This document shows positions 54,435 through 55,713 of a stretch of 64,000 nt of DNA, piece by piece. Source of the stretch: Chloroflexota bacterium. Its GTDB lineage: Bacteria; Chloroflexota; Dehalococcoidia; Tepidiformales; Tepidiformaceae. The notes under the pieces were generated by a model. The model worked only from the letters and a program-made list of their open reading frames with translations. It searched no databases and was not told the DNA's origin. The position numbers and the translations under genes are program-made. Where the stretch lies: positions 1 to 64,000 of the forward strand of contig JAPPBY010000036.1 in the NCBI GenBank assembly GCA_026702615.1, written 5' to 3'. How positions within the stretch are numbered: the first letter of the stretch is position 1; each line of letters opens with the position of its first letter.

Positions 54435-54773
54435 TCAGCCCTCCGCGGCGGCCCGGCGCTCCCGCGCCTCGATGGAGTAGGGCAACTCGTTCATGAACTC
54501 GAGCTCCTCCTCTTCGAGGCAATCGCCGAGGCCCTTCGACCATTCACTGAATTCCGGATCCTTGCCGGCGACCTCGAGCACGGACCGAACGGCGTTGGCG
54601 TCGGGCATCTCCCAGAGGTCGTAGCAGCGGTTCAGGCGGCCGATGCTGTTCTGGTAGGCGCCGTGCAGGCGCCAGCCGTTCTTTTCGAGGACGGGCACGA
54701 GGTGCGACATGATCTCCTGGAATTCCTGGGTCTTGCCGTACTTGCACTCCAGGCGAACGAGCATGAAAGGCAT
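54435..54773 (-). CDS. NIPSNAP-like dimeric alpha-beta barrel protein
   Basis: 112 residues with one ferredoxin-like fold: an initial LVRLECKYGKTQEFQEIM helix, a WRLHGAYQNSIGRLNRCYDLWEMPDANAV middle (split by turns) and an acidic C-terminal helix. Resembles NIPSNAP/ABM-type small oxidoreductase-like proteins, with unknown function. It starts 40 bases after the SelW-like selenoprotein gene on the same strand, so the two may be co-transcribed. Confidence 0.75.
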   Translation of the reverse strand: MPFMLVRLECKYGKTQEFQEIMSHLVPVLEKNGWRLHGAYQNSIGRLNRCYDLWEMPDANAVRSVLEVAGKDPEFSEWSKGLGDCLEEEELEFMNELPYSIEARERRAAAEG

Positions 54774-54813: not shown

Positions 54814-55065
54814 CTACGGGAGTCGGGCGGCGATTGCATCCTCCAGCTCCTGGATCTCGGGGAAGCGGCCCTCTGCCTGCTTCGAGTAAACGAGGTCGCC
54901 ATCGACCTGGACCTCGAAGGCGCCGGATTCGCCGGGGATGAGGGTGAGGGAGGCGGTTTGCTCGGCGAACTTGGCGAGGAGTTCCTGGGCCGTCCACGCG
55001 GCCCGCGCGGTGTAGTCTCAGGGGACGCAGTATTCGATCGAGATCGCCAGGTTGTGCTGAGCCAT
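54814..55065 (-). CDS. SelW/Rdx-family selenoprotein with CxxU motif
   Basis: 83 residues when the TGA at 55018-55020 is read as selenocysteine. The product begins MAQHNLAISIEYCVP, then Sec16, then DYTARAAWTAQELL, and later GESGAFEVQVDGDLVYSK and EGRFPEIQELEDAI. Cys13-x-x-Sec16 after the first strand is the invariant redox motif of SelW/SelT/SelH (Rdx) thioredoxin-like proteins, and GxFEVxVDGxLVYSK is their second conserved block. GGAGGT seven bases upstream supports the ATG at 55065. A hairpin (54987-55004) follows the UGA. It is divergent from the UGSC gene and upstream of the NIPSNAP-like gene. Confidence 0.9.
54987..55004 (-). promoter_or_regulatory. Candidate bacterial SECIS hairpin in the SelW-like gene
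   Basis: On the minus strand GGGCC (55004-55000) and GGCCC (54991-54987) form a 5-bp stem with an eight-base loop GCGTGGAC starting 18 bases after the UGA. An alternative stem closer to the UGA (CCGCG with CGCG and a bulged T) also exists. Confidence 0.45.
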
Positions 55066-55194: not shown

Positions 55195-55713
55195 ATGACC
55201 ACGATTCTCGACCCCACGGACGAGCGCGTTCCAGTACGGCGCTCACTCACGCAGCGGCCGGAGGCAATCAGCGGAACGGTCGCGCTGCTGGATATCTCGA
55301 AGCCCCGGGGCGACGTCCTGCTCGACCAGCTGGAGACGCGCCTGCGGGAGCGGCTCCCCGAGGTGGACGTGCTGCGCTACAGCAAGCCCACGTTTACGAA
55401 ACCGGCCCCGGAAGCGCTGAAGCAGGAGCTGGCGAAGGAGGCCGACTTCGTCGTCGAAGGGTTGGCCGACTGAGGGTCGTGCACGACGTGCAGTGTGCAC
55501 GACACGACCTGGCTGGAAATCAACGGAATCCCCTCGGTGTTCATCGCCTCGGACGAGTTCGAGGAGGCGGCGGAGGCGCAGGCTGAGTCGCTGGGGCTGC
55601 CGGAAGTACGGCGGCTCTTCGTGCCCCATCCGATCCAGGACGCGAACGACGACGAGATGCGCGAGAAGGCGGACGCGATCGTCGAGGACGTGATCGCGGC
55701 GCTGATCGACTAG
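55195..55713 (+). CDS. UGSC-motif selenoprotein
   Basis: 172 residues if the TGA at 55471-55473 is selenocysteine. The frame is continuous: FVVEGLAD, Sec93, GSCTTCSVHDTTWLEINGIPSVFIASDEF. GLAD-U-GSC is the signature of the UGSC (seleno)protein family, in which the TGA-encoded residue precedes Gly-Ser-Cys; some members have Cys instead. The first 90 residues have the family lead-in (SGTVALLDISKPRGDVLLDQLE...). A perfect 9-bp hairpin follows the UGA. It is probably a thiol/selenol redox enzyme of unknown substrate. TATAAT and GGAGG precede the start. Divergent from the SelW-like gene. Confidence 0.92.
55476..55503 (+). promoter_or_regulatory. SECIS candidate in the UGSC gene
   Basis: GTCGTGCAC (55476-55484) and GTGCACGAC (55495-55503) pair perfectly over nine bases around a ten-base loop (55485-55494). 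The loop is 11-20 bases downstream of the UGA. This is the strongest of the three SECIS candidates. Confidence 0.7.

Follow-up and report, generated by a model that had tools for sequence, protein, structure and literature searches.

The window, i.e., the whole 64,000-nt stretch of Chloroflexota DNA that was analysed, carries two neighbouring, divergently oriented genes for putative selenoproteins, one of the Rdx/SelW-like family and one of the UGSC family (Table 1). The former had been proposed in a first-pass annotation of this DNA, in an entry that does not mention the second selenoprotein gene. Both belong to a gene order, secA - UGSC - Rdx - NIPSNAP - dCTP deaminase (DCD), that is conserved in the genus. 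A consensus promoter or terminator was looked for in the stretch between the Rdx and UGSC genes, and none was found. In named collections, the close matches come from Dehalococcoidia MAGs, one of which is assigned to Tepidiformaceae (Chloroflexota).

Table 1. Features of the Rdx-UGSC locus (positions in the window)
Feature	Coordinates	Strand	Remarks
Rdx/SelW-like selenoprotein gene (predicted)	54814..55065	-	83 aa, Sec at residue 16; family profiles, read-through frame, conserved TGA
In-frame UGA of the Rdx gene	55018..55020	-	Codon 16 in C13-V-P-U16, predicted to be read as selenocysteine
SECIS-type hairpin GGGCCG-CGUGGA-CGGCCC	54987..55004	-	13 nt after the UGA; comparative support
NIPSNAP-domain gene	54435..54773	-	Co-directional; ~40 bp separate it from the upstream Rdx gene; conserved in the genus
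UGSC-family selenoprotein gene (predicted)	55195..55713	+	172 aa, Sec at residue 93; divergent to Rdx; family profiles
In-frame UGA of the UGSC gene	55471..55473	+	U93
Hairpin directly after the UGSC UGA	55474..55510	+	Inner stem CGUGCA-GUG-UGCACG

The Rdx frame and its product

The minus-strand frame opens with ATG, runs from 55065 to 54814 through 83 codons, just one of them TGA, and closes with TAG. The first-pass annotation had given this TGA-crossing frame 84 codons; the frame stands, and the count becomes 83 residues plus the stop. A GGAGGT lies directly upstream of the ATG, as had been claimed, and a GGAGG-type site is found in most of the genus. The read-through product (MAQHNLAISIEYCVPUDYTARAAWTAQELLAKFAEQTASLTLIPGESGAFEVQVDGDLVYSKQAEGRFPEIQELEDAIAARLP) contains both C-V-P-U and GAFEVQVDGDLVYSK, the layout by which the gene had been recognised. 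The longer listed ORFs that overlap the gene are in other frames. Genes for short selenoproteins of this family readily escape annotation, since the UGA interrupts the reading frame 15 codons in.

The joined protein scored above the cut-off of both family models, i.e., Pfam Rdx (PF10262; 91.5 bits, cut-off 22.6, E 3.8e-26) and TIGR02174 CXXU_selWTH (68.4 bits, cut-off 34.2), so that the family assignment proposed from the letters held, and the profile scores place the frame far beyond chance. When the 2.87-Mb genome (38 contigs) was searched in six frames with the Rdx profile, the locus in the window ranked first, with one TGA inside, and a second Rdx gene of the Cys type (motif CAQC, C2) was found elsewhere. 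The AlphaFold model (pLDDT 87.6) places C13-U16 directly after the beta strand 6-13, and its best PDB match is 2oka (TM 0.90), with the bacterial SelW-related crystal structures 2fa8 and 2obk also at TM ~0.9. By homology and by the predicted model, the product is a thioredoxin-like protein with a putative CxxU redox centre.

Decoding of the in-frame UGA

The standard code reads an in-frame stop in this gene, which is what would be expected if a Cys codon had turned into TGA through mutation or a sequencing error and the frame were dead. We consider this exceedingly improbable, because the same TGA occupies the same codon in all nine genomes of the genus, which are independent assemblies of nine species, and also in other genera. 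Among the matches listed, the TGA is kept in every one with at least 55% identity, and the more distant Rdx homologs have either TGA or Cys at the Sec position. The sequence 3' of the TGA, with dN of 0.09-0.15 versus dS of 0.39-0.91, is under purifying selection, which also argues against a pseudogene, as does the presence of the full Sec machinery in the genome. The search for this machinery recovered all four components, i.e., a tRNA-Sec with the anticodon UCA (71 bits), SelA (516 bits), SelB (a 642-aa ORF, 299 bits) and SelD (347 bits). The SelD gene (L020, C8:40194-41129) has an in-frame TGA within CGGU (TGCGGU), and by this its product would be a selenoprotein itself.

The hairpin downstream of the Rdx UGA lies within the stretch 54980-55020, where a SECIS element had been expected. 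All six pairs are formed in 14 of 14 orthologs, with G at the first or second loop position, and the six-pair stem is complete in none of the Cys homologs. No base differs among the orthologs in columns 19-32, even at wobble positions, and two synonymous changes turn pair 18-33 from G-C into C-G in other genera of the family, a covariation that comprises one pair and may represent a single event. Compared with synonymous recodings of this G+C-rich stretch, the free energy of the hairpin was not significant (fractions 0.2-0.65); thus the SECIS claim rests on the conservation of the wobble bases and on the compensatory pair. A search of Rfam returned no SECIS match and only a sub-threshold chance match to PhrS.

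That UGA 16 encodes a different amino acid, or is passed by leaky read-through without selenium, seems very unlikely, since homologs have Cys at this position, a tRNA-Sec with the UCA anticodon is present in the genome, and a SECIS-type hairpin follows the codon. Moreover, UGA terminates the secA, NIPSNAP, dapA and aminotransferase genes of the window, which indicates that the genetic code was not simply reassigned. We propose that SelB and tRNA-Sec decode UGA 16 as selenocysteine, aided by the hairpin just 3' of the codon, as the comparative genomic data suggest. With the conserved UGA, the hairpin and the machinery all pointing to Sec at residue 16, as the first-pass annotation had it, the gene in the window almost certainly encodes an Rdx selenoprotein.

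The adjacent UGSC selenoprotein

The standard code splits the divergent neighbour into two ORFs (55195-55473 and 55495-55713). Its product contains the UGSC motif and matches NF041046 with 169.5 bits (cut-off 125) and PF24696 with 168.3 bits (cut-off 25). The hairpin that follows its UGA is stable, and the inner stem reads CGUGGA-GUG-UCCACG in the other UGSC clade, i.e., there is a compensatory pair between the clades.

In the predicted model of the UGSC protein (pLDDT 93), the chain folds into a flavodoxin-like alpha/beta sandwich, and the Sec residue lies where a helix begins. Structural comparison of the model returned numerous Rossmann/flavodoxin-like folds at middling Z values and picked out no single family, and no convincing match came from searching the PDB sequences with the UGSC profile. 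The hhalign alignment of the UGSC profile with the C-terminal part of the GrdB/PrdB family reached a probability of 94 (P 1.3e-7) and placed Sec on Sec, versus at most 3.8 for reversed, column-shuffled and unrelated control alignments. There was no match to the Pfam-bounded GRDB stretch because it stops short of the Sec residue. TIGR01917 weakly matches the same UGSC stretch at 13.9 bits, far under its cut-off of 602; membership of UGSC in the GrdB/PrdB family was therefore rejected in favour of a distant homology of the C-terminal part only.

Two genomes of the same class (G064 and G065; loci L162-L186) carry at least 31 UGSC genes each, and those listed have exactly one in-frame TGA. The strict D-U-G-S-C-[ST] DNA pattern gave 20 matches in G064, whose estimated contamination is 7%, versus 0 in the control. 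The selenoproteomes of these two genomes may rival the record in the literature, 63 genes (PMC13188914).

Pairing of Rdx and UGSC genes across genomes

A divergent UGSC gene lies ~99-128 bp from Rdx in eight of the nine genomes of the genus, and in the remaining one (G005) the two are 2.6 kb apart. The Cys-type Rdx gene of the window genome is followed by another UGSC selenoprotein gene, which starts 29 bp later, so that both Rdx loci of this genome adjoin UGSC. The arrangement in which a Cys-type Rdx gene precedes a co-directional UGSC gene within 100 bp was found for 14 distinct Rdx sequences, of which almost all come from Chloroflexota. In a tree of 83 Rdx proteins, the UGSC-linked Cys-type genes form part of one clade (98/98) and the UGSC-linked Sec-type genes of the genus belong to another (97/93). 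The tree was built on 81 columns only, so its deep forks are uncertain; the linked groups are nevertheless well separated, and the pairing thus probably arose twice. In a sample of 99 relatives, the linkage was present in at least four genera.

The operon of the Cys type further encodes a protein of ~350 aa that carries the motif GW[ST]DGLP, for which no match was found in Pfam and NCBIfam. The gene for this protein follows UGSC in many Chloroflexota (L052 from ~1768 (+), L110, L101, L047 and others), and it often stands beside UGSC without Rdx too. A 3-kb contig filed as Phycisphaerales (L100) carries an Rdx-UGSC-GWSDGLP cluster with an Rdx near-identical to a Dehalococcoidia one, and is probably mis-binned. 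Two loci of another genus (L032 and L034 of genomes G026 and G014; genus g7) have a Sec-type and a Cys-type Rdx gene in tandem, ~90 bp apart.

Proposed function of the pair

The Rdx product would most likely act as a small thiol/selenol reductant, as its family suggests, and the repeated gene pairing suggests that one of its partners could be the adjacent UGSC selenoprotein. The pairing is observed directly and the chemistry is inferred; that Rdx might regenerate UGSC is less firmly suggested than its role as a reductant. There is an even chance that the Rdx selenoprotein acts alone or relies on general thiol partners, and that UGSC lies next to it by positional coincidence. The same-family genera at loci L031-L035 carry Sec-type Rdx without UGSC nearby, Sec-type Rdx is not linked to UGSC in other phyla, and several genera hold both families unlinked. 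The separation in G005 points the same way, the synteny within one genus could be inherited, and divergent genes do not require a shared function. A coincidence would nevertheless have to account for linkage in two separate Rdx clades and two orientations, and for its presence at both Rdx loci of the window genome. Functionally unrelated neighbours are about as likely as the regeneration of UGSC by Rdx.

In glycine reductase, GrdA is a small CxxU protein that acts with GrdB. By analogy, the Rdx-UGSC pair might work somewhat like GrdA with GrdB, a suggestion that we make tentatively and regard as rather doubtful. A fuller version, possible and likewise on the unlikely side, is that Chloroflexota possess a two-component selenoenzyme made up of Rdx (CxxU or CxxC) and UGSC (UxxC). 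Its stand-alone GrdB-type Sec domain would attack the substrate, Rdx would replace GrdA/thioredoxin in regenerating UGSC, and the GW[ST]DGLP protein would be a third part in the Cys-type operon. If true, this would provide a partner and a chemistry for two selenoprotein families of unknown function.

Relation to known systems

Our results provide an annotation correction in the form of the Rdx gene. The recurrent pairing, seemingly of dual origin, and the relationship between UGSC and the catalytic domain of glycine/proline reductases lead to a testable idea of SelW-like/UGSC function.

SelW-like and UGSC selenoproteins are already known and abundant, according to PMC2398784, PMC9312934 and PMC13188914. 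The first of these ranks both with the bacterial selenoproteins that are most abundant in aquatic metagenomes, and the last describes their functions as largely uncharacterised. The Rdx protein of the window shares its family score, size, CxxU motif and predicted fold with the bacterial SelW-like selenoproteins (Rdx, PF10262; TIGR02174; PMC2398784, PMC13188914). It differs in its genomic context: these two papers report Prx/SelW neighbours, and the window gene is divergent to a UGSC gene. The passages covered from papers on UGSC describe Prx/SelW pairs, and neither a SelW/UGSC pair nor a link to GrdB was found in them.

The neighbour belongs to the UGSC-containing selenoproteins (PF24696, NF041046; PMC2398784), lying above the curated cut-offs. 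A thioredoxin-like fold was proposed for this family in PMC2398784, whereas a flavodoxin-like alpha/beta fold is predicted here. Compared with GrdB/PrdB, UGSC aligns with the C-terminal Sec domain and is without the N-terminal part of GrdB. Although the Rdx family differs from GrdA, the small CxxU protein Rdx encoded beside the UxxCxxC protein UGSC recalls GrdA (CxxU) and GrdB (UxxC) of glycine reductase.
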